Assembly: GCA_947184155.2 (NCBI GenBank)
Contig: CAMXCT020000833.1
Coordinates: 62,001 to 126,000, forward strand
Reading direction: 5' to 3'
Source: Cladocopium goreaui
Taxonomy: Eukaryota > Sar > Dinophyceae > Suessiales > Symbiodiniaceae
Length of the DNA stretch: 64,000 bases
The notes beneath the pieces were generated by a model, which was given only the letters and a program-made list of their open reading frames with translations, was not told the DNA's origin and ran no database searches. Of this stretch, positions 30,951 through 60,100 are shown piece after piece. Numbering within the stretch: the stretch's first letter is position 1; every line of letters begins with the position of its first letter. The translations under genes were made by a program, and so were the position numbers.

Positions 30951-33900
30951 GTGGTTGGTGGTGCTGATAAGGGCGGCATCATCGTGCGTGAGGAAACGGT
31001 GTGGTTCTGGATTTTTGCCAATAAACATCCAGCTGAATTTCTCAGTACATTACATTGCATCGCACTTTGATAGCATTTCACTGCTCTAGATTTCATTGCA
31101 TTGCATGACATCAGCTGATGAATCCTCCTGTGCTGCCGCGCCAGGATTTAGATTTGGCATCGCCAGCTATCAGCGAAAGGCTTGCCACTGGTTCGCAGGT
31201 TAAGGACCGTTTCGGTCCGTGTGAGGGTGGTTGATGTTTTTTTCCTCCTTTTAAATTAAATGAATATAAATACATGGGGTTTTAACCATCAACAACGGGC
31301 ATTTGACCTCTGAATGATGGTTGGTGAATGGTGAAAATGATGTTCAAAGCAACTGACAAAACCGGGATTTTTACATTCCACATGGAACCCCAGGATCAAC
31401 CAACCGGTTGGGATGAGGGGTCCAGGTGACGCACCATCAGGAGTTAAGCTGGCAAGATGGGCGTCTACAGTATGAGTTGGTGTGTGGCTCTGGCCCAAGG
31501 AAAGGCTGGGTCACAGTGAACTTGAAGGGCAAGGACCGGGACTTGCACTGCAGCTGATGCTTGACTTCCTTGGCACAACATATGAATCATGTGACTTGTG
31601 AGGACCTATTGATGCAGATGCCAGCGACGCAGAAGGACAGGCAACAGCAACAGCAATGTTAGCTTTTGGACTGGTGATAGCACTGCGGCTAAGGGCAGAT
31701 TTAAATCAGGTACCGGTTAGATCGCTCTGAAGGTTCTGAAAGCATAGTGTATTTGAATGGGAATCTTGCAGCAAATAAAACCACATAAAAACACCCATCA
31801 CTTTGGAGGCCGGCTGGTCTTGAGGTGAACGCAGCCAGTAGACATAGTTTCTCCGGAAGGTGAATGGGTCCCGCTATGATTGCGTGCTGCCAGGAGGTCT
31901 CAGTCGACTCCACCAGTGAGGGCGAACAGACCTGGGATGCCTCTGCTGAGTCCACCAGTGACGTTGAGCTTTCCCCGGCCTCAACGAAGGATGAGAAGGG
32001 ACCTTCCAAGGACGAAAAGGAGGCCTTTGATCAGTACCTCAACAAGTTTGGTGAGAATCGGGCAGGGGAGAACCCTGGATACAATCGCCAAGCCTTTCCC
32101 TGGGCTGGGCAGCCGAACAAGAAGACTACGCCAAAGGAAGCGATTGAAGCCGTGCTGCTGGCGAATCAGCCTAAGAAGGACGGGGGGTATAGACAACCTC
32201 TCAGCGAAGTGGACTCGGAGGGCGAGGATGCTTGAGCTCTTATTGGCCAACACTTTGATTTTTTCACGAATTTCCTTTTTTTTTTTTTTCTCCTCCCTTC
32301 TTTAAAAAAATACTCACGAAAGCTTGTGCTAGCTGAAGTCGCTCTTGCTTTAGCAAGGAATAAGGAATAGGCAGGCAGCAGGAGTGTCCAATCCCTAGAA
32401 ACTTTCAAGGCTATACCGCCGAGTGACCCGGGTTCAATCCCCCCTGGTCCGTGGTTTGAGGGCAGGTACAGGTTTGCCATCTTCATCATCATCTGCGTTT
32501 TTTTCTTCATCTTCTTCATTTTCATCAGTTGTAGTTATCGTCCTCCTCCTGCTCCTCCTCCTCCTCATCATCATCATCATCATCAGCATCAGCAGCCCCC
32601 TTCTCTGTTTGGATCTCAATCCGGTTCTTCCTTTTGCCAGTTAGACACCACTCTATATATGATTTAACGCCCTCGGTTGAATAGATGAGTGAAGTTTTAA
32701 CATACTTTTGCCCTGGAGTTTCGGCTTAAGGGTGGTATGAGTGGAGGACCGTCGCCTCCTGGTGTCGGTCCCCAGCTTCGTGCCGCCTGGGGCCGTGTAG
32801 AAGCGCTACTGGGAGAGACCCACCTCCCGGAGACCTTTAAGTGGGAGGCGCTCCGCCGGGTCCGGAACTTCTACGGGGAGCTTCAGGACTTAGCGGAAGG
32901 GGTTGGACAAGCTCCTGCTGAGGGGAGTGGACAAGAGGCCAAAGACGGGGTGGCAGCCCCGTCTTTGGCTGTTGAGGGGAGTGAGCAACCTAGCCTCCCA
33001 CTTACTCCTGGGAACAACTGCCCCGGAGACCTAGCAGTAGAGGAGTTCAAGGCAAAGGAGGCCACAACAAAGGAGAAAAAGAGAAAGAGTGAGGCATCGT
33101 CAAGAGAGGAGCGAAAGAAAAAGAAAGAGCGGCGTGAGAAGAAAAAAGACAAGGAGAGGAGAAGAAAAGCCAAAGAGAAATCACTGGAGACAGTCACACC
33201 TCCTGCAACACCGGTAAGAGACAGAGAGCCTAGTAGAACAAGAGAAGAGGGAGAAAAGCCTCCCGCAGAAAGTACATCTGGATTAGAAGTTGAGGAGAAC
33301 ATAGATAAAAGGAGTGGAGAGATCAGAGAGCAAGAGGGCGAAGCAAGTGCCCATCCATCGCCGTTCTCTCCTGTTGCCAAAGAAGAAAGAAGTCCAGAAC
33401 AAGATAGGTACTCTCCCGAGGAGAAAGGGAGGAGATCAGATCAGAGGAGTAGAGGAAGAGAGCGTAGACGGAGCAGAGACAGGAGGAGCCGGAGGAGAGA
33501 TCGGGCTAGGACCTCAGCCAGCCCAAGGAGGGGAAGAGGAGACAGCAGGTCCACCAGAGCTAGGTCATCTGGCCGACGCCCTCCCCCGGAGCCACTTTAC
33601 CCTCCAGCCGTTCGTGTCTGGTATCCCACAACACCTCCTCCGGGTCAGTTTGGACATTTTGGCCAATATTATCCGAACTGGAACAGTAAGGGAGTGAAGA
33701 GGCGCTTGAGGAACTGGGACATTAGACACCACGGCACTGACCCAACCAGAAAGGCTGCTAGAGTTGAGGGGTATCGTCGGGGTGAGGAAGCTGCTGGGGG
33801 GCGTTGATGTCGAGGAGGCCTGCCGCAGCAAAGCCAGCGCCGAGACGAGCAGTGTTGCGGCGCCCTGCAGCAAGAGGAGAGGCTGGGGCGGCTGACGCAG

Positions 33901-36900
33901 AGGGAGAAGTTTCTCCTGTCCTAACTCCCGACGAGTGGGAGAAAAAATTTGAGGCGGGAGACATCATACCCGCCTCTGCATACCCCTTGGGTTCCTTCAA
34001 GAAAGGGGATTGGATTCAAAGTGAAAAAGCCAACTACAGTGGTGAGGTCTGCAAAGTAGCTTTGAAAGTAGAAAAGGTGTCGGTGGAGGACGGAGAGGCT
34101 GAAGCTACAGTCATTGTGACTGGAACTCAGTCGGAAAACCTCCTGAAATTTGTGTCTGGGCAGCCAGGCATAAAGCTCAGGGCACATTTGTGCCATAGAG
34201 ATTGCGACCAGCTGAGGAGCAATCCTGATCTTCTTCACCTTAAAGACTTTCAGCGCATCAAGCCAGGCAGTGTGACAGGATGGGAAGAGAATCTCATTGC
34301 GGTCGACGAGAACGCAGAGCTGAGGAGAGAGATGAAAGAGAAGACAGACAAGAAAGAAAAGAAAGAAAAGGAAGCAGCGGAGGTGTCAAGCCAGAGTGGA
34401 GAGTCCAAGAAGGCGAGAAAAAGAAAGAAGAAAAAGAAAGAGAGGAAAGAGAAAAAGAAAAAAGTGGGGGGCCGAAGCCAGGCCAAGAAACCCCTGGAGG
34501 CTCTGTACGGGAATACGGGGCTCGATCCGGACAGCAAAAAGAGGAAAAGGATTGTGGCCCGGATGAAAAAGAAGTTAAAAAAGGCAAAAACCTCGTCCAG
34601 CAGTTCGTCGGCGAGTTCCAGCACCAGCACCTCGGAGGGGGAGACAGTGGAGGACGACTTGCTGCAGGACAGGTCAAAGTTGCAGAAGATTGCAACGATG
34701 GCCCCAGGAGTCTTGGCGGCATCGTCGCTGCAGACCATGAAGTCTTACATCATGCAGAGCAGCGGCAACCCGTGGCATTTGGAAGAAGGGAGTCTCCCCC
34801 CAGTGCTTTCACAGTATGCCAGGCAGTACCTTTTGGGGAAAGCCAGTGGTGGGATTCGTCGAGAAATAGAGACGTTGGTGTGCATTGGAGATTATCTCCT
34901 GCTGGGCAGGGCAGCGGAAGCCTGCGACTGCCTTGTGCAGCGAGTGAAGAGCTTAGAGATGACCCTGGCGGGCCAGAGCTGGGCCACGAGTCAGAAACTA
35001 GAAATAATCCCCAATGTGGACGCTGGAGTGGCGTCAAGGGCAGAACTCCAGTTAGCCCAGACGGAGGCAGCACTCGACATGAAGGCGAAAGGGAGCAGCC
35101 CCGCCTGGCCAAGAGACAAAGGAAAAGGGAAAGGCAAGGACAAGGAAGGAGGAAAGGACAAGGGCAAAAACAAAGGAAAAGCTCCCGAGGCGCCAAAGAA
35201 AAACTCCTGAGTGTGGGAGAAAAAAGAAGAAGAATAGCAGAGGGAGAAAAGGTTTGCGCTCTTAGAGATACTCCCGAGGATGATGGGAGTGAAAGAAAAA
35301 AGGCAACAGGAGGATGCAACAGTAAAGGAAGTGAGGACGCAGGCAGAAGCTCCAGGACGATGCAGAGAAAGGGAGAAGACTGTAGGGCGGTAGCAGAGGG
35401 AGTCAATGAGCTCCCGGTTGGGTTTCACTTTTTCCGTGGAGGAGCTGCCACTCCTCCTGGTAGTGTGCATGAATCTTCTCCCGATGTGGATGAAGGTACA
35501 GCTGACGACAGCCAAGGCACAGGCTTGGGCCGCGCCAATGCTGGAAAAAGTTGGGAGCCGACTGATCACACTAGTTTCGGAATAGAACAGATTTTCAAGT
35601 GGCTGGAAAGCAAGGTGGATTTGTTTAGGTGTAGGCTCTGTAAGGTCGCGCCCACGGGTAAAGTTTTTCCTTTACCCACATCCCTCTTGCTGCTACGCCA
35701 CCTTTTTTCTGAAGCTAGGGAGTCGTGGTTGGTCTGTCTCAAAGTGTTAGTGCTTTCTTTGAATTCCCTTAATGGGGAAGGACTTGAATTTGTTGGAGAG
35801 AATGTTTCCAAGTTGCAGAAGCAAGTTCTTGAAGGTCTACTACCAGCGTGCAAGCGGGTGTGTGAGTGGACTGAGCGATTGGACGCGTTTTCGTGGCATG
35901 ACTTCTTTTGTGTAAGAGGGGTCGACTATAAAGGTGATGAAATCCTGAACGTACAGTGGATTAGGTGGGAAAATGTCAGCCCTGCGTTGCCTGTTGAGAT
36001 TGGAGGGGTGGAGTTAGAGAAGGTGGTTGAGCTGGGTTCTCATCACTATGTGCTTAATTTCGACACGTACCTGTTGGCGCCAGAAGATCAGGTCTATGTG
36101 CGCCCCCCGCGCGTGATGGTTGCACCAGAGTGCTGGGATGCTTTTTGCGATAATATGTTGCAGAGGGGAGTCTTTAGCATGGTGCATGAAGACGAGATCT
36201 ATCGGGTTCAGGATAAGCCCCTTCTTAACGGGTTATTCGGGGTGTCTAAGCACGAGTTTGAGGGGAACTACGAGGTGATGAGGGTCATTATGAACCTTGT
36301 GCCGGTGAATGCGGTATGTCGAGGGTTGGACAGCGACATTGCTACCTTGCCGTCAATTTCTGGGATGACGCCTTTGGAACTTTTGTGTGATGAGGATCTG
36401 GTGATTTCCAGTGAGGATGTACGATGTTTCTTTTACATCTTCAAGATCCCCCCTAGCTGGCATCGCTTCATGGCTTTCAATCGTCCTCTTCCTGCTCGAC
36501 TCTGTGGAGATAAACCTGGAGTATGGTACCCGTGTAGCTCTGTCTTACCAATGGGTTTTAAGAACAGCGTAGCGTTAGCCCAACATGTGCACAGGGTTAT
36601 TGCCAAGAAGGCGTTGGTACGGTGTCACCTTGGGGGGGAGGTCGAAATGCGAAAGGATAGAAGTTTCACTACGAGCAATCCCCTCATGAGAATTTATTTA
36701 GATAATTTTGATGAGCTTCGCAAAGTCTCAAAGGGACATGCGGAAGCTATTGCAGGTCATGTTTCACCGTTGGTTTCTAGTTTACGGGAGGAGTGCATTG
36801 CTGAAGGTTCCCCGTCACCCTAGAAAAGGGGTGGCGAGTCAAACTCTTGCTGAAGTTCAAGGTGCGGTGGTTGATGGTAAAGCCGGAATTGCGTATCCCA

Positions 36901-39900
36901 AGCAGGAGAAGGTTCTCAGGTACGCTTATTTGACCAGGCTTGTACTTGAAGCAGGTGAAGCCACACAGAAACAGATGCAGATTGTCGGTGGAGGCTTGGT
37001 TTATTTGGCGATGTTCAGGAGACCGCTCCTAGGTAGCCTTAATGCTATTTGGACCTTTATCTGCTCCTTTGAAGGATTTCCCCCCGTGGTCAAATTGAAA
37101 CTGCCTGAAGAGGTCCGAGAAGAATTGGCAAGGTTTCTTGGGTTGATTCCTTTGGCTTACATGGACTTCCGTTGCCGCCTTAGTAGCTTGGTAACCGCTA
37201 GTGACGCGTCAACTACGGGCGGGGGTGTTACGGCTTCCAACAAGCTATCGCCTGCGGGTTGTGTGGCAGCCCAGTGTCCTGTACGGGGGGATGTGGTGGA
37301 GCCAACAGACATTACGGGTGTGCTTACCGTGGGGTTGTTCGATGGCATCAGTGGGTTACGAGTTGCCGCTGACGTCCTTGGTTGGAACGTAATGGGGCAT
37401 ATCAGTGTTGAGCGGTCGCCGGAAGCAGCCCGAGTTGTTGAATCACGGTTTCCCAACACTATTCATGTGTCAAATGTGCAGGACATCACTGGTGAGATGG
37501 TTAAAGACTGGTCCCTGAAATTTTCTCAGGTGGGCCTCATACTGCTGGGGGCTGGTCCCCCATGTCAGGGGGTATCAGGTCTAAATGCTGCACGAAAAGG
37601 AGCGCTCCGAGATGAACGTAGTGCTTTGTTTCAGCATGTACCCCGCGTAAGAGATTTGCTGAAAGCAGCCTTTCCGTGGGCCCAAGTTCAGACTTTGATG
37701 GAATCAGTGGCATCCATGGACCAGAGTGACGAGGAGATCATGTCGGCTAGTTTCGGTGCTACACCTTGGTATATTGATGCTGGAAATGTGAGCCTGGCTC
37801 ACAGACCACGGTTGTATTGGACGGAATGGGAATTGGTGGCTGAAGAGGATGCCACCTTGGATGTTCTTCCGTCTGGTCGGGCACGTATCACATTAAAGGC
37901 CCATGTTGAGCCAGCAAAATATCTTCATGAAGGATGGTCTATGGTTGATCAAGGTTTACTGCCAACGTTTACCACCTCTAGGCCGAGATCGGCACCAGGC
38001 TATAAGCCTGCAGGTCTTCGACAGTGTTGTCCGGATGATGTTAAGAGGTGGACGCAAGACTCATTTCGTTTTCCTCCCTATCAGTATCAAGCACGGCATT
38101 GTCTTTCAAACAAACATGGGGCAATGCGCATTCCTGATGTTGAGGAAAGAGAGGTGATAATGGGATTCCCCAAAGGGTATACTGCGCAATGTATGCCAAA
38201 GAGCAAACATGGTTCGCAAGCATACCAGGATTGCCGTTTGACATTGGTGGGAAATTCCTGGAATGTTACCATTATTGCGTGGTTACTATCCCGGCTGGGA
38301 GCTCGTTTAGGTTTGAATCCCAACTTGAGGGTACAAGATTTGGTGGAACGCACCGCACCAGGAAGTGAAACGGATTTCCAGACCTACCTGCAGCGGCCTA
38401 TGATGGGAAGCTGCCGACGGGTGGGGCACCTGGCTAATGAGCTTAAGCTGGTTCGGAAATTGTGCACGTTGATCAGTATCAAAGGTGATGACCTTTTGAT
38501 TCAGCCGTCTACGGACGATCAGGTCAAATATCAGAGATTAAGGGCGTCCATTCCATCAAAGTTGTGGAAATGGCGTACCATCTGTGGATGGACCTGGTCG
38601 CAACAAGCTGAGCATATTAATGTGCTTGAGCTTCGAGCCGTTCTTACGGCTTTGAGGTGGCGGATTGAACGCAAAGGAATTACGCATTCCAAGTTTGTGC
38701 ATTTAGTTGATTCTTTAGTGTGCCTGCATGCGTTGAGTAGAGGACGGTCATCTAGCCGTAAGCTAAAACGTACCTTGCTTCGGATCAATTCCCTGCTTCT
38801 TGCGACCAACTCCCACGTTTTGTGGGCTTACGTGAATACAAAGGACAATCCGGCGGACGCCCCGAGTAGGCGGCCCCGGAAAAGAAAATGGTCCAATGCC
38901 TAAAAGACGTTTGGAAGGAAAGACGCAAGAAGATAGGGTAAAAATCCGTAAAAGCTTAGGTACGTTAAGGGAACTGACCGTCCAACCTGTTACAAAGGCA
39001 CGTTATGCTCAGGCACGTGAAAACTTTTACACATACTTGCGTGACCACCATCTAACCTTGCCTAACCATGGTGTCGCTTTGGATGCAATAGTCAGTGATT
39101 ATATGGAGCATCTGTGGGCCACCGGTGCGGGTCGCACGGAAGGCTCAAATATCCTTGCGGCATTACAAGATGCCCAGCCTCAATTAAAAGGCAAACTTTT
39201 GGAAAGTTGGCGTCTTTTGAAAACTTGGACAACGCATGAGGTGCCAAACAGAGCTCCTCCTCTGCCTTTAGAAGTCTTGCATGCCATGGTTGGGTACGCA
39301 ACTTTTAAACAGAACTGTAGATTAGCTCTCAGTTTTTTGCTAGGGTTTCATGGGCTCCTGCGGACGGGAGAACTCCTGCAGATTAAAGGGAGTCAAGTTT
39401 CTATTCGTTCGCCGCGTGGTCCCGCTGTGATATCGTTGGGGTTAACCAAAAGTGGCAAGCGTCAGGGGGCAGCAGAGTCTGTCACCATTTACGTTGAAGA
39501 TGTTTGCCGACGCTTGTATCAATGGGTGCAGAATTCCCCTTCGAACCAACTTCTCGCGGGTCCAGCGCATCAATGGCGTAAAGAATTCTCCGGTGTTATG
39601 TCCGTATTGGGGTTCTCGCAGTGGGATTTTCGCCCCTACTCATTGCGAAGGGGAGGGGCAACCTATCTGTTTTCAAACCAAAGCAATTTTGATCGGCTTT
39701 TGGTAGCTGGTCGTTGGCAATCCGCCAAGACTGCAAGAGTTTATTTGAATGAAGGGTTATCGGTCCTAGCTGAACTCTCCTTACCGTGGACACGATTTTC
39801 AAAAAATTTTCGTCAGCAATACTCCCGTAGTCTCACCTTACCCCTGCCTCCACTTGAGCCCGTGCCAAAGGCACAGAGCAGGGGGACTCGGAAGAAGGCA

Positions 39901-42900
39901 AACAAGCGCACAAAAAAACACAAAAAACGCATTGGATGCGTGACACATGGGTTTAGTCCTTCTGATCTTGGGTTTGGCCGGACAGAAGGAAGCCCTATTG
40001 CTAATACCTTGGCTGGAATCTCTTTAGGTTTGGCTGGGAGTTTCCAGGGGTATTGGGATTGAAATCCCTGGACTGGTTGTTTTGTGCTTCTTGGTGGGGA
40101 AAAGCTTTTCGGTGATTTTTTAATTTTGACACACTTGACCTTGCAGAGCGACAAAAGTTGTGGCGCTGAACGAGTCTATGATTTAACGCCCTCGGTTGAA
40201 TAGATGAGTGAAGTTTTAACATACTTTTGCCCTGGAGTTTCGGCTTAAGGGCCCCCCCTAGTTTCACTTCCCCCCCGGAAGAAGGCAAACAAGCGCACAA
40301 AAAAGCACAAAAAACGCATTGGATGCGTGACACATGGGTTTAGTCCTTCTGATCTTGGGTTTGGCCGGACAGAAGGAAGCCCTATTGCTAATACCTTGGC
40401 TGGAATCTCTTTAGGTTTGGCTGGGAGTTTCCAGGGGTATTGGGATTGAAATCCCTGGACTGGTTGTTTTGTGCTTCTTGGTGGGGAAAAGCTTTTCGGT
40501 GATTTTTTAATTTTGACACACTTGACCTTGCAGAGCGACAAAAGTTGTGGCGCTGAACGAGTCTATATATATATATATATATTATATTTCAGTTTCTTCT
40601 TTCAGCCGAGCAGTCTCCGGTACAACATTCGTACTGTCCTGCTAGCTTACCTCTCCCTGGCCTCACGTTGATTTTGCCTCGGGATATCTCGGGATATCTC
40701 GGGATGCCACGGCAGAAGCACCGGCAGTGTCACGATATGAAGGCAAAACCACTTCCAGTGGGCTGAGGATTAACATGGCAGGATTAACATGGCATCCCAA
40801 GGGATCAGCGTGAATGAGATGAATCAGCATGCCTCCAAGGAAATCATGTCGGTTCACTCTGAATTGCTGAATTAAGTTCCATGTGCGGTGGTCCACCCAT
40901 ATAGTCTTTATGAGCATTGTTTCTTGAAATGCTGCTAGTCCTGACGAAACTGCCCTGCATCTGCAACTTATGACAGCGAAGATTCAGAGGCAAGTCTGGC
41001 CTCAATGACCATGAGATGCATCAAGACTTGAAGGGAAATCAGCAATCAACAATGTCTGCAAGCCAGAGAGCTGGGTCCTTTAAAGTTGTCCCTGGCATCA
41101 AGCCTCTTCCGGAACCAAGGAAGTGCCTTTGTGCACAAGGTGTTGCATGCCAGTGGGGCAGTTTGCATATGAGGGCCGACAGGGGAGACGCAGCTGGGTG
41201 CACGCTGAGTGCATGGCACAAGTTCTCGTTGAGGACTGAGGTTGGAGGTCGACTTTAGTTCTCCAATGTTCTAACCGATTCTAACCCATTGGTTTCAGTT
41301 TGCGACATCAACAGTGCTTGGAAGCAGTGCTTGTCGCAGGATGCCCAGCGACATGAAGACAGGCGAGCTTCTTGGGAAGCAGAGAAGAAGCTCAAGAGTC
41401 GCAAAGAATACGAGATCGGTTGGCGCATGGACAGTGTCCCACAAAACGCCGTGCTGGCAGAGCGTGCCTCGGCGGGCGAAGTCTTGGCGAAATCTGGGTG
41501 GAAACCAGTGGAAACCAGTGGAAACCATACAAGCAGACCCGTGATTTTTAGTTGTTTATCAATCGTGTGTCTAATCTATCTGTCTGTCTATCTATCCATG
41601 TATCCATCTATCCATCATCCATCATCCATCATCCATCTACCTACCTACGTGCTACCTACCTAACTACCTAATTACCTATCTACCCAGCTACCCAGCTACC
41701 TAGCTACCTATCTACCTAGCCCTAGCACCCAGCGACTTAGCCACCTAGCGACCTAGCTACCTATCTACCTAGCTAGCTACCTACCCACCTGCCTATTACA
41801 AACACAAGGTAGTTGCACACACACACACATGCAAATAGAGGACACAGAGGGATACAGATATGATTCTGCACAGATATCCAATGGCCATCACCGTAGGTAT
41901 GGGCTGCAGCACAGCTTGTCCCGGGCTGTGCTGCTTGGTGCTTGATGAGGCTTCCAGAACCGTCAAGGTGCATTTATTGGGCCAGAAGGTATAGCCGGTA
42001 TAGCTTCAAAATATTTAAAAATCAAGTGGTTGGGCTATGGTTGGGCCTCCGGAAACTGATCCTTTGATTCAGTTGGTCTCCTGTAGGTGGCACCTACCCT
42101 GGAGCCAGCTGCTGCAGTGAATTTGGAGTACTTGCTCCTGGCATTAAAGGTGCGTAAGACTGCTAAGCGCGAACCACTCTTCTCCTTAGATCCAGTGGAT
42201 CCGCAGAACTTGGAGACCTGCCGTGAACGACCTGGCATTGCTTTGCTGGTGCCGGCCGTTTGAGAGGTTTTGCCAGGGGCATAAGTAGGATGTCTTGGTA
42301 TCAGTGTTTGGGAATACTCCCCCGTTTCTCACATTGGTCCTGAAACAATTTGCGGCCAGGGTGTAATACAGATGCCGACCGAGGAGAAGACTCCGCAGAA
42401 GAAGGTCTATGAACCCAGTTGGCTGGCCGGCACCAGTGTTGGAGATGTCATGTTCCAAGCAGACTACTTCCTGAAGGAATTGGCACTGGGAGAGTACACC
42501 ATGCCAGTCCCAAGCTCAGAGCATGAAACCAGTTGCAACTCATTGTGGTTCAGCCACACCTCACAATCTTCAAAAAAGCTTCCAGTAACTCGAAAAAAAA
42601 GACGTGTTGACACTTCAGATTTCTAGCGCTTTTTTCCACTATACCCTACCTGGTACCCTATTGCCCCATCATTTAGCTGTGGCTTCATCGTCAGGTGGCT
42701 GGCATGATGAGCGTCTTCGACTGGTCCGAGGTTTCGAGCACGGAGAGGGATCGCAACTGGTCAGGCCGCGAATGGTTTGTGGTGCGCAAAGCCGAGGTCC
42801 GAATGTCGGTGGATCAGACCCTGGTCCCCGTGGTGAAGATGGGGGTGGAGGCCCGGGAGCAAATCCTGACCAAGACTGGGCTGGAAGATGCAGCTGTGAC

Positions 42901-45729: not shown

Positions 45730-45817
<88 letters not shown>

Positions 45818-47950: not shown

Positions 47951-48266
47951 GTAAGACGAGTTGGTCAAAGTCTCAAACCGGCCATGTCTGTTGGAGCCCC
48001 TGAGCTTGGGATGCTTGCCCAAGCCCCTGAGAATTGGGACCTTTATCATCCCATACCTTGCAGTATTTTTATGCAATTTTGGTACGTAGATATGGAAAGC
48101 CCACGGAAAACGTGCCTTGTTTTGCAAGGAAAATGATCTACTACACTTTCTGGTGGGTTTTCCATGTCTATGTTCATTTACTGGAGGGTATCAAATGTAT
48201 TGGCATCCATCGTGAGTAAAATGGATCGCATGTGCACTAAGTTTCATTGCATGCCACTGACTTGCA

Positions 48267-48312
48267 GACTGAGGATGCTCGGTGCCAAGAAACAGTACAA
48301 CCTGCTGGGCTA
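48267..48312 (+). CDS. Possible last exon of copy A
   Basis: After ACTGAG|GATG the frame reads MLGAKKQYNLLG and a TAG stop. A phase-2 donor linking it to 47887-47950 was not found, and the frame past 47950 also stays open for about 60 codons. The true C-terminus is therefore unresolved. Kept because the residue pattern looks coding. Confidence 0.3.
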
Positions 48313-48655
48313 GCCGCTGAACCTTAGTTGGAATAGCCTGGTTCTGGCAGCCCACAATCTGCCATTCGGCACAGATGAATGCAATTATATGACATGACCT
48401 GCTTGGCTTTCTCACATCTTCCTGCTCAACTAGCATCGCTTGGCACAGCTGCAGAAAATGGAGTCCCAATGCTCATGCTGAAGGGTGGAGATCTAGGGTT
48501 TTGAAGGACATGTGGAATGGGGTTTCGAAGGTGCCTTTCCCAACCATTTGGAAATTGCCTTCAAATATACGTACTGTAGTAACTGCAGTAAAACTGATAG
48601 GAACTTCCACTATTAGGATTGGATTTTACTTTTCAGCATCTTTTTCGGGGTAGGC

Positions 48656-51600
48656 ATGGGTTCCTACTTCGCCAGTCTCAAACTCAAGTCTCGGTCGCGA
48701 CGGGGCGAGCCGCAGCCGCTAGTGATGGCGCTCTTATGGGAGGATGGGGCGCCCAGGTGATAGCTGGGGTAATTCATGAATTGGGTGGGGCCTCAAAAGT
48801 AATGATTTACACTTACACCTTTTATATCCTTTTATGAATTATTAGACTCTGTTTCTTGAAATCAATGAATTTATGAATCTCGAGTTATAGCTTGCACACA
48901 ATTCATACAAAAGGATCCAGGGGCATCAGGGGCCAGATGATCCCAAAGTCAGTGCCGGTCTCCAGGTAGTTGGTGGTGCCGAGCACGGCGAGATCATTGT
49001 GCGCAGCGGATGTGAGCTGACGTCGGAAATGGCTGTGCGCCGCCTCTCCACCGGCTCTGTGGTCAAGGATCCCCTTATGGGGCACCCTTATTGGGGGCAC
49101 CCCATTGGTCGAAGCCTGCAGGGATGGTCCTTTTGGAACCATTCCTGGTGTGGGTCAAACCATTCCCAAATGGGTGGTTTATGAGTTTATGACACTGTTT
49201 TACCATGTTTTACCCACATTACTTGGGATTTTGGATTTCTGATTGGCTTTCCATGGCTTCCCAACAGGAGCTGAACTCTCGCGATGGCCGAATCGAATAT
49301 GAATCTTGTCCAGTGGCATCCAGCCCAGACTTGGTCTGAAGGAAGATGTGAAGGACCAGGACATACGAGGACCATAATTTTAAAACTAGATGGTTAAAAA
49401 ACACCACATTCCTTTTACCATCAGATTTTTTGACCAATCTTTTCCATCATTTGTGATTGCAAAAACCCATGGGTTTCCCGTAGTGTGCCCCTGGTTTGTC
49501 AGCCCATGGGATTGGCACCGGTTTCCTAAGGAGCTGGTGCAAGGGTCGGGCCCAGCAAATGGATGGGTAACCCCCAGCTTGCGCGGCAAGGAGCCGACAG
49601 TTGGCGCTTTTGTGTTGCTTTGTGAGTTTGGGAATAGGGCAAGAATACATTGATGATCTAAATATATCGAAATATGTTATGTCATGTCGTTTATGTTGCT
49701 TGTGTTCCAGAGTTCAAGACACTTCTAGCATTCGATTGACTGTATTCAATGCTTTGCAAGGACTCCAAGGACAAGTCTTGTGAAGGTTTTGCTGGCCTTG
49801 CGATCATTGTTGATATCCCCGTTGCAGAACTCACAGTAGTCCCGGACTCGTTCGCAGGAGCTTCTCGTCAAGAAGGCAGAGGTTTCGACCCAGGTGCAGG
49901 TCAGAAAATCCTCAGATCGCCATGTGATGGGACAATTAGACTCTGGTCCTCCTACATGGGTTTGTCTGAAAATGGGGTACCCCAAGGGCGCAGACAAAAA
50001 CCAATGGTTGAGATAGTCATACATATTCCCATTAATTTCCCATTACAGTAGCTATTTGGGTGTGTATACCCCATTTTCAGACACACCCACTTGACTTGAA
50101 CACAGCGAATACGTTGGGATGTGAAATTTGTCGGGCCTGAACCACTTCACAACTGACTTGTGATGAGCTTTGGAGCAATGCAGGTCACCAAGCGTTCTGG
50201 ACGTTCTGCCTTCTCACAATGGGTTTCGTCTAAGGATGATGAGGCACGCAGTTTCAACTCATGGCTCTAGCTCAGCAATTTATGCAAAGTTGAAGTGAAC
50301 CCTGCGCGCTTCATGGTACATTCGAGGACGTACATAGAGGAAGTGAAACCGAAACACTACCTTTTTGCACGCACGAAGTAACGCACACATGCGCTCTCTC
50401 TCTCTCTCATGCACTCTCTCTCTCTCTCTCTCATGCACTCTCTCTCTCTCTCTCTTGCACTCTCTCTCTCTCTCTCATGCACTCTCTCTCTCTCTCTCTC
50501 ATGCACTCTCTCTCTCTCTCTCATGCACTCTCTCTCTCTCTCATGCACTCTCTCTCTCTCTCTCTCATGCACTCTCTCTCTCTCTCTCGCACTCTCTCTC
50601 TCTCTCTCATGCTCTCTCTCTCTCTCTCTTTCATGCTCTCTCTCTTTCATGCTCTCTCTCTCTCTCTCTCGCTCTCAGTCTCTTTCGCTGTTTGACTTGT
50701 TCTTCCTTTGGCATTTCCTCATCGTTCATGTTTTTTTTTTCAGCTGCAACGAGCGAAGGAGGCAGAAGTGCAAACTGCTGAGCAGACTCTGGAGGAAGTG
50801 GAGCAGAAGTCCGAAGCTGAGCTGAGCTTTGCGCTCGATTGGTAACGTGTCATTTTAGTCTTGCAAACCAATGGTGGAAGAATGTGGAAGATGGTGGAAG
50901 ATGTGGAAGTATGAAACGATGAATAATATAATTAATACATAAGTTAAGGTATATACATCTATCTGTCATGCCAACTTGGGCCTGGGGGCTCCAAACGTGA
51001 CAGGAGCGACTTGCAAGTGGAGGAAGCCCCGGCGGCTGAGGAAACCCCAGTGGCTGCCATTTGCCCAGTGTTTTCATATTTTTCATGGAGTTTTTGGAGT
51101 CTAAGTTGACCGCATTGGTTGGTTGCCATGTGTCGCTATGCACCTGACCAAGGAAAAAGGCCTGTCCTCGGATGAAGCAGATGCCCTGAAGGTTTACCTG
51201 GAACGCTTTGGGGAAAGCCGGGATGGCTGCAACCCAGGCATGGCAAAAATTATGTTTTACAATGGATCCAGCGTTGAAATCTATGGAAACCTGCTGTATT
51301 TTTTTTCCCAAAAGTCGGATTCAGACTCTTGGGGTTCTGCTTTTGTCTGGGACCCTTGTGCTGAATCTTCGACAGATTAGTTTGGATTGATTGCGTGGTA
51401 TCGTGGGACGTGAGTCCAATGCCCTAAGCATTGCCTCAGATGTTAGGCTACAACCGCAAAGCTTTCCCATGGTACACGGCACCTGCTAAGCAGCCTGAGC
51501 GTCAGACGTTGTCAAATGAGGCGCAGGGATCGATCAGTGACTAGCTGCTACTAGCTGCATGCTGAGCTACCGGCATTGGCAGTCCTGGGACATCCTGGGA

Positions 51601-54600
51601 CCCAGTGACTTCCCCCGGAGGCTCTGAAGTCAGCGATGAACAAGCCGGTCCGCAGAATCATGAAGGACAAACACTGGGAGGCGGACTCAGAGGCTTGCAG
51701 CTCAGTTGCTTACGGTCAACGGTTTGGGCACGGATCCACAGATGTGCGTCATTCCGAATGATTTCACCAGCCATTTTGGAGGTATCCAACCTTGATCCAT
51801 ACACCCAGGAGTTTTCTCACTGCTTGCGGCTGTAGCTGCCATGTTGTGCCCCTCCCAGTCATTAATTACTGAGTTACTGGGATTATCAGCTCCTAATAAC
51901 TTATAACATGTTATAATCCCATTTGATGGGTAGTTCAACCTCATAATTAATGGGGTACTTGTGGCATCTTTAACCCATTTAACTGGACGTTGGGCGGGAT
52001 GGTCCTGATGGTCAGGGTGAAGATGTGCCGCTCTGCACGCGCTGTTCTCTGCCAGTGGGAGAGTTCACTGGCCAGCAGAGCTGCGGAGTTTTCGGGTGAT
52101 TTTCCATGTGATTTCGATGCCTCCAGCAGTGGGTCTGAGATGGATTTCAGTTGATGCGGTCACTCCTGGTAAGTCATTTTCTTGAATTGGTTGAGCATGT
52201 TGGAGTCGTTGATTATTTGGTAGTCCTCCTGGCAGTGGAACCATGATAGAACCATGATATAACAATACGCTTACAATGCAATGTTTGGCCATTTGCCACG
52301 ACTAGCTGGGAATGGTGTGGGCGCTGCAGACATGCCAGGCCAATCTTCTCATCTCTCTAAGGTCTTTTAATAGGGACGTGGGTGAAACTCAGAGTAAGCA
52401 ATACTTATTTATTTATATACATACATAGTATATATATATATGTAAGTGTAAATGTTGATGTTAACCGAGCATGGTTTGGATACCTGTGGATGTAATGCTT
52501 CTGCAAGTATTGCTGATTGAACTAGGTTGGGACCTGGGGGCTAATCTAGTTTTCGCTCAGTTTGAGTTTGGTTTGATGCGCAATGTCATGTCGCAACATG
52601 CGGCAATCTGTACCAGGTTGTCCCCAGTACGATGATTGAGTAGCAGCCCATCCCCTGAGGTTCAGTTATCAAGGTAGGGAAGGCAAGGAGACGTGCGTCC
52701 ATGCAGAGTGCATGGCTCAAGTCCTTATCCAGGACCGTGGCTTGGTTGCTGCAGGATGTGATGCTGGAGACGGAACCTGTTGGAATTTGTTGGAAGAATC
52801 GGATGCACTTGGAATCACTTGGAAGCACTAATTGGTACCATTTTGTAAGAAGTTCCCCCACACTCATAGAATCTCGTAGCCTGCAAGTAGTTTTTTTGAC
52901 CACAACGTGTGCTTGGCACCCCGAGGTCAGCGTGATGAGAACAGCCGGGCCAAAAGAGAGAACCTGAAGAAGCAAAAGAATCGCAAGGAATATGACATTG
53001 GTTGGCGAATGGACAGCGTTCCAAAGAACACCACCCTTGCAGTGCAGATGGGTTGCCCGGCGCCACCCCAAGGCCTGTGCTGCTTGGTTCTGGATGAAAC
53101 CTCTCGAACGGTGAAGGTTGCAGCCACTCTGGAACCATCGGCTGCCATCAATTTGGAGTATTTGCTGCTGGTAACTTGGCATATCTTGGTATCAGTTGGT
53201 GGTGCCATGTGGTGCCATGTGGTGCCCTTGCCCTCCCCATCGATCCACATCGATCCCAGTGGATCCAACTGAGGCACTCAAGGTCCGAAGGACTGCGCAA
53301 CGGGAGCCCTTGTTTTCGCTGGACCCGGTGGACCCTCAGAACCTGGAGAAGACTCCGCAGAAGAAGGTCTATGAACCCAGTTGGCTGGCTGGCACCAGTG
53401 TTGGAGACGTCATGTTCCAGGCTGACTACTTCTTGAAGGAGACTAGTTGGCGCTCATGGACTGGCGCTCATGGGACCATGGTGCAGTAGCTCAAAGGCAT
53501 GGAAAACACATACGCACATGCAATTTGACCCAAATTCTCCCGTGGCGTCCCTGCAAGGAGCTTGCCCTTGGGGAGTATGACATGCCTGTAGATGCCTCAG
53601 AATTCGCTTTCCTGAGAGAAGATGGTCACAAAAAAAAACAGGCGGATTTTTGGGTGGATATTCCAGTGCTGTTCCATGCTATTCCAATGATATTCCAATG
53701 ATACCCTCTGGTAAATTAACATACTGTAGCTATTGAAAATGGCCATTTATAGTGGATTTTCCCATTAAAAATGGTGATTTCCATAGTTATGTTAGTTTAC
53801 CGGAGGGTATTCCTTTGGCCAAGAGTCTTTCAGAGTGTTTCTCTCGTCGAGTCTGTTGTCCCAAGGTCTTGGGCATGCTGAGTGTCTTCGATTGGTCGGA
53901 GATGAAGGAAAGCCACTTGATGAAAATCCTACGGATCCAGCAGCAGGATACTGTAAGAAAGTTCATAGAAAAGACATGAAAAGATCCATAGCAACCATAA
54001 GAATCCATAAGAATCTGATCCACAAGGCCCAACAGTTGGACAGGTGAATCTGATCAGCGGCTTTGCTTGGGCAATTGGACAATCCAAAAATCATTTCGTT
54101 CATTTTCCTTCACATGTGGTTCTTCCAAAAAATCCACCAAATGGCTAACAATTTATTTCGTTCATATTTTTTTCTACATGTTCATGGCAATTGCCGATGG
54201 TTTACCATTGGTTTACCGAGTTTACCTGGTGGGCTTCCAAGGAAACAAGGCCTGGGCGGGCCGCGAGTGGTTCGTGGTTCGCAAGGCGGAAGTCCGCACG
54301 GCAGAGGATAATACCTTGATTCCGCACGTGCGAATGGGTGTTGAAGCCCGAGAACAGGTCGTGACCAAGAAGGGCAACTTGGATATAGCATGATATAGCT
54401 GACCCAGTTGGAGAAGAGCACTTTTTTGGTTTTCAAATGAGCACTTTTTTTTTGGTTCTCAAAATAAATGCGTAACCACATACATGAATTAAACATAAAT
54501 AAATAAATGCATAAATAAAGAAGTAAAAGTAAACACATAAATAGATAATAGAAAATAACATATAATACATATTAATAAATAAACAAATAGATAACCAAAC

Positions 54601-54900
54601 AAATGAAACAAACAAATAAATAAACAAACAAATAATGAAATACGTATATACATATACATCTCCGAGATGGCGATGGAGAGAGAGAGAGAGATAATATATA
54701 TATATAATATAAAAATATAATATATAATATATAATATAATATATATATATATTATATATAATATATATATAATGTGTATATATATATACATGCACAGTCA
54801 CACACACATACATATGTATATGTATATGTATACTGTATACTGTATATGTATATGTATATGTATATGTGTATATGTGTATATGTGTATATGTGTATATATA

Positions 54901-54935
<35 letters not shown>

Positions 54936-57900
54936 ATATATTAATTTGTGTCAAGAGATTAAGGAGTGAGTACATACTACGCATGATACAGGATACAGCG
55001 CTGCCACGAACCCTCGGCATTTTTCCGGAAGATTGACGCACTCCGAGGGCCATGTTGCGATGTTGCATGTTGCGTTGCCCTGAGGCATGGAGGATGCTCC
55101 TGTGACCCTGCCCAATCACCCACTGAAGAAGTTCGCCGATGCCTTCACCAAGAACTTTGATCTCATCGCAGAGCGCAAGAGTGTGGTCTTCCACCTGCGA
55201 GAACTGGCGAAAGCCTCGGTGATGGCCAAATATTTGGTGGATTCCAAGGCGCGTCTGGATCCCGCCTGGTACAAGTTGGCTGATGAGATTGTGCAGTCAA
55301 CTCCACCAGAACAATATCCTGAGATCCCACAGCTGTGGAACATGCGTGGCAACTCGCGCATTCAGCTGAAGAATGGCAAGTTGGTGGATATCATTACTGG
55401 AGGTCAGAGCAGCTTGCAGGCCATCTATGGTGGTGTTGAATTTGGCTTGGACAGGCCGGGATTCACACACCTTTTTTAAAATAACCTGCCACAACCTGCT
55501 AATCATTATTTATTGTGCTTTGGTCCATATCACTGCGCTGCCATGATTGGTTTGCGACAAAGTCTTCTTGCAGTGTCTAGCACTTATGACTTTCTGTACG
55601 GCCATATGGTTTAACAGAGTTGAATTTGATGTCCAATGCCAATATGCCGATATTATGCGACGTTACCAGGTAACACCAGGAACACATTATGAATTAACCG
55701 TCCTTATCACTATAGATATAGCTGCCATGATGCGGGGCTCCACATCATGAGTTGTACTAAGCCACATGCGCTGCAGGTTCGAGCTAGCTCAGCGCCATGC
55801 GACTTGCTCTGAAATCAGTGCGACAGGGGTGATGACACTACCGCCACATTGCCAGATTTTAGAAGTTATAGGACGAATATCCACAGATTCCAAATTTGGA
55901 GCTTCCAGATTTGAGAGGTGTTCCTTCAAATGTTGGGAATATGGCCCGTCCAAACACGTGGTGAGGCAATGCAGAGCCAAGCCAGAGGTCCTGGAATGCC
56001 ATTGGCGCAGTCCAGCCGTCCTCTCTTCATGCCCCAGCGCTTTCAGCTGGGACAACGTGGTGAGATGCCTCAGGGTGTAGACCTGAACTTGGACGCTTGG
56101 ATGATACATGATACCATCTGGTCAAAACATGGCTGGAACATCCCCGAACTAAATGGAGCTTTTAATGGGACATCTTTATTTTATCATATTTTATACAGAG
56201 TTTTCCAGTGCCATGCTTGATTACCAGACAGTGTTCTTTTTGCACGGTTTTGATTTTGGCATTGGGCACTCTGGGCGTGAATGATTCTTCAAGAGTGAAT
56301 GTGTTTGGATCAATTTTCCCCATGCTTCAGAAGTATATATTATATAATAATAATGATGATAATAATAATAATGTAAACTTATATGCGCACACACACATAT
56401 CTATCTATCATTATCTATCTATCTATCTATCTATCTAATTAATCTAATTAATCTATCTATCTATCTATCTATCTCTCTATCTCTCTATCTCTATCTCTCT
56501 ATCTCTCTATCTCTCTATCTCTCTATCTCTCTATCTATCTATCTATCTATCTATCTAGATCAGCGTGTGCGTGTGGGCCCTGTAAATGCACATGCACATA
56601 TACAATATACATATTTGGAACTAGTCCGGAAGGGGCTGAAATGATGCTGAACACTGTGGTTTTTCTTTGAATTCTTTGAGGACAAGTTCAACCTCAGCAC
56701 AGAAGAGCGCTTCGCTGGCCGTCTCCCACCCTGCAGTGCTGACGCTGGCTCCCTCCCGCACCGCACTGCTCTTGGCAAAGCCTTCCTGCAAAGCTTGCAA
56801 GAAAAGTCATGGCCAGGTGCCCGGGCCAGGATGTCTCAGGATGTTGCTAGGTCCCGTTTCTGCACGCCACAGGTGTGAAAGCAGCAGATGAGAAGCTGCT
56901 GTTGAACGTTTTTGCCGTGCCCCAATGCGACCGCGTTGAAGAGGGCGATGCGTTCATTCCACCTGATCCAAACATGGAGTGACCCGTTCTCATCATGAGT
57001 TCTTCCTGCTCTAGGCTAATTATAAAACAGGAGTCCAGACACAGTTTGTCCAATGATGGGTTTGATATAATTCCATATAGTTCATTATAGTTCTATCTAA
57101 TTCTAATACATTCTATCCCCAGACCGCTGATTTTACATCTATTCATTATGAACTCATGCAGCTTTTCCGTTGAAAGTTCTGGTGGAGTCCGGGGAGCACG
57201 ACTCTGGACGATTTGAATGTGGCACTGGCCAAGAGGAAGGTTCACGAAATTCAAAGAACTAAGGGAAAAGCCACACATATTCCAATCCAAAAGACTTTCA
57301 TTCTATATCTATATTGTTTATATTTATATCTATACGTAATATATATATATACGTGACATGCAATTATGTTTGCGTTTGCGCGCTTTACTTTACTCCATTC
57401 TATTGAAATCAAAGATGGAAAGAACATAGATATATTTCTAATGTCTACGATATATTCAATTCCATCCTTTGCTGCTTGATGATTGAACAGCTGCATCCCT
57501 TAAGGGTTAGCATGACCACGTGAGGTATGTGACCCAGGTTCGCCACATCGTGGGCGAGGAGGAGTCCATGCGAACCCGCCGAAGGATGAGATTTGCCGAC
57601 AAGAGCTTCTCAGTGTCCAATCCGGGGCCCGAATTTCCCAGGTCTTGGACCTCAGGCCGGGGATGTTGCAAGGTGGACTCCAGGTGGACTCCAGGTGGAC
57701 TCCAGGTGGACTCCAGGTGGACTCCAGGTGGACTCCAGGTGGACTCCAGGTGGACTCCGGGTGGACCACTTCAAAGATGTATTTAGGTGCTAGATGTATT
57801 GCTAGATGTATTAAGGTGCAATCCTGGCCAACCTGCGAGGCATTTTCAGGCCTTGGCAACTTGGGCCGGGGAAATCGGCTCCCTGCGCAGGTTTCCAGTT

Positions 57901-59621
57901 GGAGTTGGATGGCAAGGTGCCGGTGTCTGCCCCGACCAAGTTTGGACTCTCCAAGATTGAGATCGACGATTCCATGAGGAGCTGAGCTGGCGGGGTGAGG
58001 TTGAAGATGGTTGAAGTGGGGAAGCAATGGGAAACATGATCTGAGGATGTCTCAGCTCGAGATGGGCCAACCTTTCTGGGTTGGACCGGGAAACTTGGAT
58101 CAAAGCAGATGCCAGTGATAGATTCGCCCACCCAGGAAGAACCTCTTGGAGGATGTGCTGCCATCTGCTGCCTCAGAGTTTGAGAAGACGGCCGAGGATG
58201 GAGCCATCTATCGCATCTACAAGATCGGGAGCGTTGAGGCTGCCGGTCACCTGTGCCCAACATCCACAAACATCCCAATACTGGCAACTAGACACCCAGA
58301 AAATCCTAAAAATACATTCCAAGCACAGTCACATGAGTCTGGAAGATCATGATGCACATGATATCACATGATGCACAATGAGGTGGTGTTAAACAGTCAA
58401 ATTGTATGTGACGCAATGAAAAGGACAGGCTGCAACAGGATTCCATTTCAGTTTTCATTCCCCGGGCCATCGGACTGTTTGAAAAAGCTGTTTGCAGGTG
58501 CGAACGATTCAGGAGACTGACGGCCCTGAGACCATTTGCGTGGTCTTTTCCAGTGGAGCCGCCTCTTGGGAAGCCAACTCTGCAAAGCCTGACGACCGAA
58601 TCGAAAAGGAGAAGTTGTCCAAGTGCAAAATGTATGTGGAGGCCGTGGAGCATGAAGCTTCCAACGGTCGCGTTGGATGCAACTTCTACTTGGTTCTGGA
58701 CTTTTGCACATTTGCTTTTAGCAACTTTTTGAAGGCATTTGTTTGTGGACGGAACTTCGAGGAACCCAGTGTGCCATCACCTATCGGATATCCATTCAAT
58801 TGATTCAATGGATAAATCAAAGCTTACCGTAGCTGCGTAGCTATCTCAATGACTTGATTTCAATGAGTTCTGATTCAATCCAGTTTTTTGGGTCGCCCAG
58901 CAAGTCGCCCCGAGGAAACCCATGGCAAGACCACCTTGATGACGGAGCTCCCGCGCGGCGGGGAAGTCAGCTGGCTCCAGAACCCCCGCAGCTTAGAGGA
59001 CCGGAACTCGCTGGCGAAGCTGCTCTTCCAAGCGGACTGCAAGGACCCCATGGGCTGATGCCGAGGGCCTTCAATTTTTTGGGTTTATTTATTTCACATG
59101 GAAGGCACCGAGGTTGGGGGAGATCAACTTTAATTGATGATTGATTGTATGAAATTGTACATGAATTTGCATGAGTGTGAAGGAAGTCATGCAGCCATTC
59201 CAAAAACTGCATAAAACATCAGCTTCTGATCTCGCAAGGATGGCATCACCGTTGAAGATGTGAAAAAGTTCCAGCAGAGCCTTGTTCTGCCTGCAGGCTG
59301 GGCCTTGTGGCTTCCAGCGCATCACTTCAGCTGGAGGATTCAAGAGTTCTATAATATTCTATAATCTTAAGCAACATGGATGATCATGCTGCCAAACATG
59401 TTGCCCGGTTGATTTTCAACATCCTTTTCCTCAACCTTTGTGTGGCGTTCGAGTTCATATGCTTCATGCACATTCTTGCCGTGGTTATGCTTCCTTCACT
59501 CACAGCATGGTGCGGTTTGATCTCAACAGGCTCTGGTGCCCACCACAGCAAACAGTATGCCAAAGCGATTTTCAAGTACGTCACAGCCAGGGGTTTGCGA
59601 GGAAAGTGGGGAGGAAACAGG
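48656..59621 (+). CDS. Tandem gene copy B (same unrecognised family)
   Basis: Possible first exon: ATG 48656-about 48750 ([20 protein letters not shown]). Module and coil: 48966-49067, 49268-49300, 49531-49590, 49858-49899 ([14 protein letters not shown]), 50744-50841 ([18 protein letters not shown]) and the acidic exon 51004-51049, all in phase. Body of 22 exons: 51153-51237, 51447-51520, 51621-51692, 52016-52062, 52660-52739, 52926-53170, 53274-53438, 53558-53587, 53866-53911, 54242-54373, 55085-55454, 55777-55805, 55988-56091, 56681-56816, 56873-56978, 57525-57641, 57850-57978, 58136-58238, 58498-58698, 58915-59043, 59239-59296 and 59530-about 59621. The body is about 850 codons without a stop. 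The metal site CTRC...VHAEC spans exons 52016 and 52660. An apparent stop at 56980 is intronic (GT donor at 56979). Function unknown; no membrane helix or signal peptide is obvious. The exact end was not found. Confidence 0.74.
49957..50088. mobile_element. MITE with GTCTGAAAATGGGGTA inverted ends
   Basis: The left end GGGTTTGTCTGAAAATGGGG and the right end, which reads GGGTGTGTCTGAAAATGGGG on the opposite strand, enclose about 90 bp without an ORF. It lies in the copy B intron 49900-50743. Confidence 0.7.
50395..50690. repeat. (CT)n array punctuated by ATGCA
   Basis: Blocks of about 14-22 CT bases alternate with CATGCA or TTGCA every 20-26 bp. It lies in the copy B intron upstream of the coiled-coil exon 50744, whose acceptor has a T-rich tract. 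Frames on both strands across it are artefacts. Confidence 0.9.
53702..53809. mobile_element. MITE copy 3 inside copy B intron
   Basis: A 108-bp member of the TACCCTCTGGTAA family, ending GGAGGGTA, inside intron 53588-53865. Copy A has an intron at the same codon (42507-42694) but without the element, so insertion came after the copies separated. Confidence 0.82.
54640..54950. repeat. (AT)n/(GTATAT)n microsatellite in copy B intron
   Basis: AT- and TATATG-rich run inside the intron 54374-55084. Copy A has no intron at this position. Confidence 0.9.
56335..56560. repeat. (TATC)n/(TCTC)n microsatellite in copy B intron
   Basis: TAATAA run followed by long CTAT and TCTCTAT blocks within intron 56092-56680. 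The position is uninterrupted in copy A. Confidence 0.9.
57671..57765. repeat. 11-bp AGGTGGACTCC minisatellite
   Basis: Eight to nine nearly perfect copies begin about 30 bp downstream of the splice donor at 57642. Every unit contains CCAG|GTGG, which resembles both an AG acceptor and a GT donor. Confidence 0.9.
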
Positions 59622-59699
59622 AAGCGACACGCGCCTACATCCACATCGTCGCTTGGTGCCAACATCTTTGACATGGTCCATTCCTGGATCAGAATGGGA

Positions 59700-60100
59700 T
59701 GAGACGTTCCGACAAATGGATACAAATGGGGGATTGCTTTAGGGAGTTAATGGGGGTCAGAATCCCGTAACAATTGATATCTTAGAGGGAACTATTCATC
59801 ATGAAGAAACTCACTGTGTCTGTTGGTTGAAACTTTAAACACATCTTTGTTGGACATTTCATGGTATTTCTGTTGGCAAAAATGTCAATTTCTGTTGGTT
59901 GAGATCCACCACATCGAATAGTTCATGATGTTTTGGTTGGTTGATAAGTTGATCTTAGCTGCATTTCTGCTAAAGATTCTCCCTGCCTCGGGAGGTTCTG
60001 ACTCGGGAGGTTGAGTCAGGTTGAGTCAGGTTGAGGTTGAGTCAGGTTGAGTCAGGTTGAGGTTGAGTCAGGTTGAGTCAGGTTGAGTGAGGTTGAGTTC
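59700..60100. other. Non-coding with a GTTGAGTCAG tandem repeat
   Basis: From 60009 to 60099 there are about nine copies of the 10-bp unit GGTTGAGTCA, some shortened to GGTTGA. The rest of the stretch is unique, with no supported exon. Confidence 0.7.

Follow-up and report, generated by a model that had tools for sequence, protein, structure and literature searches.

The window analysed here, a 64,000-nt stretch of the Cladocopium goreaui genome (Symbiodiniaceae; contig CAMXCT020000833.1), holds three neighbouring copies, A, B and C, of a dinoflagellate gene of unassigned function, the third of which is cut by the window end. Paralogues usually retain intron positions over very long times. 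A and B are colinear, and nearly all of their introns lie at different places. The coding spans are as follows.

30708-48310 (+), gene A: 27 introns, 986 codons; reference-guided model, with the last 385 residues of P0019 matching exactly
48725-61085 (+), gene B: 31 introns, 1034 codons; reference-guided model, with the last 661 residues of P0002 matching exactly
62983-63998 (+), gene C: conserved part used for counts, gene start unsettled and end cut by the window; reference-free and reference-guided models

Exon structures of the gene copies

Borders in the gene bodies (A from 41234, B from 51693) were obtained with a genome-versus-genome spliced aligner that used no protein reference. Full models were then made by reference-guided splicing, and the A and B intron positions were tabulated on a MAFFT alignment. 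The reference for B combined a relative's gene model, for the first part, with P0002, a JGI protein on a 3.2-kb contig, for the rest. Gene B reaches 61085, past position 59621, at which the preliminary description of this locus had stopped.

Spliced B was identical to P0002 along 661 residues, crossing 17 introns, and spliced A was identical to the MMETSP transcript protein P0019 along 385 residues, crossing 11. Exact 10-residue matches spanning the junction were found in transcript-derived proteins (P0019 and P0085 for A, P0002 and P0003 for B) for 22 of the 27 A introns and 17 of the 31 B introns; when all proteins compared were counted, the figures were 24 and 27. P0002 and P0085 come from contigs hardly exceeding their open reading frames and are probably transcripts. 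Judged by eye, both P0002 and P0019 seem to be mixtures with other paralogues outside the exact runs. For C, the models obtained from two references disagreed (6 versus 7 introns), and because its first exons are unsettled we counted only its three conserved introns.

The closest protein relatives of A and B were from Symbiodiniaceae, with Durusdinium trenchii, Effrenium voratum and several Symbiodinium among the named ones. Protein s2202_g3 was 98% identical to A over 445 residues, and s2202_g4 was 98% identical to B over 542. From their identifier styles we take symbB.v1.2.008245 and 008246 to be from Breviolum minutum and Skav228654 and Skav228656 to be from Fugacium kawagutii.

Our models reproduced the colinear copies with 21 body introns each that had been described before. 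Ten of the eleven introns given there as examples came out exactly in the reference-free alignment; the eleventh starts at 43217 and not at 43220, a border that would add a codon (ADEMIVKN) that relatives' proteins lack. Every intron listed below is in the reference-guided models and in the A/B/C position table, and "ref-free" marks a border that also came from the reference-free aligner.

Common to A and B
30717-30950 (+), A, WE^V, common to B 48743
48743-48965 (+), B, WE^V, common to A 30717
31205-31440 (+), A, VK^E, common to B 49068
49068-49267 (+), B, VK^E, common to A 31205
31534-31602 (+), A, GK^D, common to B 49591
49591-49857 (+), B, GK^E, common to A 31534
42507-42694 (+), A, MP^V, common to B 53588
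53588-53865 (+), B, MP^V, common to A 42507; holds a repeat of ~110 nt
44927-45155 (+), A, within E of MEY, common to B 56979; ref-free
56979-57524 (+), B, within E of MEY, common to A 44927; ref-free

Private to A
30993-31144 (+), ref-free
31636-31893 (+)
32227-41119 (+), after VDSEGE, 8893 nt, contains a DIRS-type retroelement
41234-41339 (+)
41464-41896 (+), ref-free
41968-42086 (+), ref-free
42213-42383 (+), ref-free
42922-43057 (+), ref-free
43217-43382 (+), ref-free and relatives' proteins
43496-43784 (+), ref-free
43902-44127 (+), ref-free
44178-44367 (+), in a gap of B
44529-44809 (+), s2202_g3 reads through here; ref-free
45273-45503 (+), in EFPR; ref-free
45550-46140 (+), ref-free
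46262-46463 (+), ref-free
46560-46737 (+), ref-free
46809-46971 (+), ref-free
47043-47187 (+), 2 nt from B 58699
47293-47446 (+), ref-free
47546-47886 (+)
48010-48273 (+)

Common to B and C, absent in A
51238-51446 (+), B, common to C 63050; ref-free
63050-63210 (+), C, common to B 51238
51521-51620 (+), B, common to C 63282
63282-63386 (+), C, common to B 51521; ref-free
51693-52015 (+), B, after VDSE (ADSE in B), common to C 63465; A intron 6 nt off
63465-63641 (+), C, common to B 51693

In B only, absent in A and C
52063-52659 (+), ref-free
52737-52925 (+), 4 nt from A 41234; ref-free

Private to B
49301-49530 (+), ref-free
49900-50183 (+), symbB 008246 reads through here
50238-50758 (+), in a gap of A
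50809-51003 (+)
51056-51152 (+)
53171-53273 (+), ref-free
53439-53557 (+), ref-free
53912-54241 (+), ref-free
54374-55084 (+), ref-free
55455-55776 (+), ref-free
55799-55965 (+), ref-free
56092-56680 (+), ref-free
56817-56872 (+), ref-free
57656-57890 (+), Skav228654 reads through here; ref-free
57979-58135 (+), s2202_g4 reads through here; ref-free
58239-58497 (+), Skav228654 reads through here; ref-free
58699-58914 (+), s2202_g4 reads through here
59044-59238 (+), adjoins a gap of A
59297-59529 (+)
59648-60131 (+)
60219-61042 (+), past the end of A

Intron positions and age of the copies

The near-total difference between A and B that had been claimed for this locus held up. Of 53 distinct intron positions, 5 coincided exactly (WE^V, VK^E, GK^D/E, MP^V and one within ME^Y) and 48 were private, at a protein identity of 59% (573 of 974 aligned residues). 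In the body, only MP^V and ME^Y coincided. Both of these had been named among four exact coincidences in the preliminary description, which missed the other three, and its remaining two were not borne out. The VDSE intron is common to B and C, and the A intron lies 6 nt downstream, after VDSEGE; the EFPR intron is in A only, with the nearest B intron 14 nt downstream. Near-miss pairs 2, 4 and 6 nt apart, at alignment columns 901, 261 and 223, could be introns that slid.

Copy C does lack several introns of both other copies, as had been said. In the counted stretch its 3 sure introns are all common to B, 2 of the 5 introns of B are missing from it, and all 4 of those of A are absent. Identity in this stretch was 129/189 between B and C, 119/187 between A and C and 113/186 between A and B, and does not explain well the sharing of introns by B and C but not A.

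Uniform random placement of introns predicted 0.26 chance coincidences between A and B, against the 5 observed. When placement was weighted by splice-site context the prediction was 1.59, with a probability of 0.016 for 5 or more. Codons 1-75 hold 3 shared of 5 distinct positions (0.69 expected, P 0.007), while beyond codon 75 there are 2 shared of 48 (1.15 expected, P 0.32); given the latter result, retention of any ancestral intron by A and B past the first 75 codons has no statistical support. The cut at codon 75 was picked after the data had been seen; Fisher's test of the 5' concentration gave P values of 0.004 at codon 75, 0.04 at 150 and 0.07 at 200.

We determined a dS (synonymous divergence) of 3.1 between A and B by NG86, a method that yielded no value for A versus C. 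Synonymous sites are saturated, and identity at fourfold sites was 97/263 (37%) against 27% from composition; the low synonymous divergence expected of recent tandem duplicates was not seen. In a 20-row bootstrap tree an A clade (Evor_P82, Evor_P34, Symbiodinium CCMP2456, Durusdinium P0086, symbB 008245 and window A) and a B/C clade (Evor_P10, Evor_P20, Symbiodinium pilosum, necroappetens and CCMP2592, P0005, Skav228656, symbB 008246 and window B) each had 100/99 support, and each contained named Symbiodinium and Effrenium proteins. A 49-row quick tree that included part of C gave the same split of A from B/C. Both trees were midpoint-rooted, and the branch order within B/C differed between them. 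The A versus B/C duplication predates the Symbiodinium/Effrenium divergence, and the copies are ancient. The available text of PMC11114475 places the split of Symbiodinium plus Philozoon from the other lineages at 166 +/- 46 million years ago. If that split is at least 166 million years old, 48 private positions over 2922 aligned nt correspond, as a rough average, to at most ~5e-11 gains plus losses per nt per year.

Gene identifiers, not genomic DNA, suggest that the tandem order itself is old and not secondary. Neighbouring identifiers are borne by symbB 008245 and 008246 and by s2202 g3 and g4, Skav228654 (a mixed A/B-like model) and Skav228656 (C-like) share a scaffold, and contigs both listed as 494083 long carry proteins of the A and C types. 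The preliminary description had held that ancient copies in a secondary tandem arrangement would speak against it; the copies are indeed ancient by dS and by the trees, and the arrangement appears to be old as well.

One patch departs from the saturation of the two copies. Positions 42383-42478 of A and 53345-53440 of B are 95% identical at the nucleotide level; the patch spans the end of an A intron to the start of a B intron, and the exact match of P0002 to B begins inside it. This suggests gene conversion.

Intron borders and the origin of the introns

All 61 modelled introns (27 in A, 31 in B, 3 in C) have the form G(A/C/T)...AG|G, with 23 GA, 22 GC and 16 GT donors, a strictness that is partly built in, as the aligner scoring favours such borders. 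We observed that the intron and the exon behind it have the same second base in 41 of the 61, against 19.1 with permuted acceptors, a count that none of 5000 permutations reached. Bases 2 and 3 matched jointly in 18 introns (4.9 expected; largest of 20000 permutations, 16), and direct repeats of at least 4 nt were present at 31 (17.3 expected; largest of 2000 permutations, 27). At decoy AGG sites the base-2 match averaged 16.4, with a maximum of 29 over 2000 draws. For none of the introns would an alternative G...AG placement give the same mRNA, so the base-2 match is not a product of border choice. GA donors were paired with an exon A in 21 of 23 cases and GT donors with T in 12 of 16, while GC donors were paired with C in 8 of 22 and with T in another 8; in 14 of the 20 base-2 mismatches the donor base was C. 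The match was present in both private sets (A, 14/22; B, 17/26). This border pattern fits a short target-site duplication that supplied the 5' splice site, and the locus-specific footprint supports an origin by insertion. Such an insertion-specific target-site duplication is a trait of introners of the DNA-transposon type.

We consider it likely that the locus reflects insertion-derived intron turnover in ancient tandem paralogues, as an unusually complete single-locus case. On this reading, most introns would have been gained after the ancient duplication, separately in each copy. DNA insertions would have duplicated a few target bases (AG|GN), and the duplicated GN would have become the 5' splice site, which would be why the donors are GA, GC or GT. 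Insertion, perhaps with some loss, would have replaced nearly all common positions past codon 75 over at least ~166 million years. A bolder version, which we put forward tentatively, is that intron positions are memoryless in this lineage, such that paralogues can have a gene body emptied and refilled independently, and that the familiar variety of GT, GC and GA donors in dinoflagellates is the scar of each insertion. Donor base 2 would be a copy of the target base that drifts mainly to C, with the pairing kept even at positions that paralogues share.

Several observations weigh against turnover by insertion. The footprint is weak past base 2, with base 3 matching in 23/61 (15.1 expected, P 0.016) and base 4 in 21/61 (16.1 expected, P 0.10). 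Base 2 matched in 8 of 10 A/B-shared, 4 of 6 B/C-shared and 29 of 45 private introns; saturation should have faded neutral scars, yet the match is undiminished at shared positions, which hints at constraint or parallel insertion. Terminal inverted repeats gave no signal in the 61 introns: the longest inverted repeat in the 25-nt ends had a mean of 4.23, compared with 4.24 when ends were paired otherwise, and in a scan of 168 offsets for terminal complementarity z did not exceed 2.25. These repeats occur in only some introner families. A blastn comparison of 60 of the 61 introns with the 64-kb window, which can hardly reveal a dispersed intron family, returned, apart from apparent simple repeats, just a nested repeat and a self-inverted one. 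A search for genomic orthologues with P0001 as query gave no matches in viral contigs and 5 pattern matches in genome contigs, none of them confirmed; A-only versus B/C positions fit gain as well as loss. Lastly, the accessible part of PMC10522408 reports introner elements, as defined there, from no more than 2.5-5.7% of the tandem duplicates in each Suessiales isolate and judges that the elements are not what drives these duplicates. This speaks against a simple introner story for such genes, although the definition is based on inverted and direct repeat motifs.

Intron turnover by insertion is already documented in dinoflagellates, and this locus is a striking and unusually complete instance. 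Dynamic intron gain and loss is reported in the available text of PMC11453091. Introners of Symbiodinium microadriaticum, as far as PMC9860276 was accessible, have 4-bp duplications and co-opted 5' splice sites; the A, B and C introns resemble them in the few-base target-site duplication, the 5' splice site made from duplicated bases and the 3' AG carried by the intron, but differ in that no terminal inverted repeats were found and no repeated family could be demonstrated in 64 kb. Direct repeats of 3-5 nt across exon/intron borders also characterize the non-canonical introner elements of Amoebophrya, which according to the portion of PMC7789003 at hand have inverted repeats of 8-20 nt and highly variable borders, unlike the G(A/C/T)...AG|G introns without inverted repeats seen here. 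The GT, GC or GA donors and the AG often followed by G are those described for spliceosomal introns of Symbiodinium minutum in the available sections of PMC4083563, which mention no link between donor base 2 and the base of the downstream exon; all 61 modelled introns have this form. Among the sPCP genes of Symbiodinium clades A and B, the short and long types are likewise related forms that gained introns at different places after divergence, although the excerpted account (PMC4201569) concerns two introns plus one, in contrast to 48 private positions in adjacent genes. By title and start of abstract we found no published example of dinoflagellate tandem paralogues whose introns almost wholly fail to overlap, a weak negative in that most subscription literature lay outside the search.

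A special form of insertion-derived turnover, not exclusive of it, is possible but doubtful. Here a 5'-truncated reverse-transcribed mRNA would have recombined with one or each copy and erased the introns past about codon 75 while sparing those at the 5' end, after which the body was refilled by insertion; as an extension of the favoured account, a partial reverse-transcribed mRNA may thus first have emptied the gene body. The crowding of shared positions at the 5' end would be explained if such an mRNA had emptied the body, where sharing is not in excess, and the accessible text of PMC6050394 describes mRNA-derived dinoflagellate gene copies that often lie near their parents and have introns. 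On the other hand, the codon-75 cut is post hoc and the P value rises when the cut is moved, three positions common to B and C lie at alignment columns 169-221, and we detected no spliced-leader relict, which would be the mark of a retrocopy: there were no full-length matches with up to 3 mismatches and 6 of the short form against 7.9 expected, though old relicts may have decayed.

The preliminary description had read the locus as a site of ongoing intron insertion. Insertion is supported by the border footprint, but its being ongoing is not. A recent, continuing burst would account for the many private positions and for a duplication footprint that is still visible. Against this, A and B are saturated at synonymous sites, and comparison of 60 of the 61 introns with the window turned up no near-identical copies. 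Gene models that extend into introns gave further, weak testimony. Of 24 proteins given, 20 gave rows (P0108, P0122, P0105 and P0125 were below the 60% identity limit). Extra residues are present in Skav228654 at B introns 57656 and 58239, in the s2202 models at B introns 57979 and 58699 and A intron 44529, and in symbB 008246 at B intron 49900. They hint that several private introns predate genus splits, some being carried also by a Fugacium-type genome and by a close relative. Among the 29 insertions of at least 4 residues listed, 12 were within 2 codons of an intron of the compared copy, as are 14-15% of codons, and 17 were elsewhere; because these others have no intron there, residue insertions alone are weak witnesses. 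The read-through hints therefore make a recent burst unlikely as the main story.

Differential loss alone, from an ancestor with all or most of the 53 positions of which each copy lost a different half, appears quite improbable. Loss needs no special element, and the B/C-shared positions missing from A could be losses in A. Such a history requires a single ancestral gene with ~53 introns and losses that were almost perfectly complementary, with separate losses in A and C of the introns at B columns 236 and 262; moreover, sharing in the body is not above chance and both private sets carry the base-2 footprint. An artefact of conceptual splicing or assembly is very hard to credit: the structures are inferred, the first part of B follows a relative's gene model, and 5 of 27 A and 14 of 31 B junctions are without a 10-residue exact match in the transcript-derived proteins examined, but the body borders came from reference-free alignments, the long exact runs cross 17 and 11 introns, and the uniform borders add support, weak because alignment scoring favours them.

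If insertion-derived turnover is confirmed on orthologues, the locus would be a compact, datable test case for the rate of dinoflagellate intron turnover. The border footprint also suggests a simple origin of the odd dinoflagellate donor sites, which is testable genome-wide.

Some further features of the modelled introns (30717-63641) were noted. The donor consensus extends inward, with C at +5 in 33/61, T at +6 in 30/61 and G at +8 in 37/61; the usual donor base at +5 is G. At the 44 of 48 private sites of A and B that lie outside gaps, the AG|G context was present in 19 cases in the intron-bearing copy and in 6 cases at the corresponding position of the copy without the intron, and the exon AG may have been acquired after insertion, or lost without an intron. 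A 23-nt inverted repeat pair (95.7%), resembling a miniature inverted-repeat transposable element, lies at 49957-50089 inside B intron 49900-50183. A short repeat with inverted ends has three copies, 88-92% alike, in the 64 kb (53698-53809, 6878-6985 and 19347-19452), the first nested in B intron 53588-53865.

Protein product and other features of the window

Relatives are annotated as 'ndor1' or 'NADPH-dependent diflavin oxidoreductase 1'. We regard this assignment as unsupported, as Pfam detected no oxidoreductase domain in spliced B (716 residues), the single match (E 0.09) being below cut-off. NCBIfam returned nothing at cut-off for four homologues, and a sequence profile search of the PDB gave 0 of 177635 at E 1 or less. 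The AlphaFold model of P0085, built with 25 sequences, had a mean pLDDT (per-residue confidence) of 63 and a pTM (predicted template modelling score) of 0.37, and a PDB fold search with it gave no matches at E 0.001 or less. An Rfam scan of the window gave no matches at gathering score.

A intron 32227-41119 holds a retroelement at 32658-40566 with split direct repeats in the order A-coding-B-A-B, of which 75 bp are 100% and 291 bp 99.7% identical. It matches a C5 DNA methylase (E 2.3e-5) and, below the Pfam cut-off, a tyrosine recombinase (E 0.0017), and it fits the SymbioDIRS-Dnmt3 type as described in the available text of PMC5890265. By the identity of its repeats it was inserted recently. 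In the upstream part of the window there is a tandem duplication, 7827-8612 and 8808-9578, whose halves are 95.7% identical.

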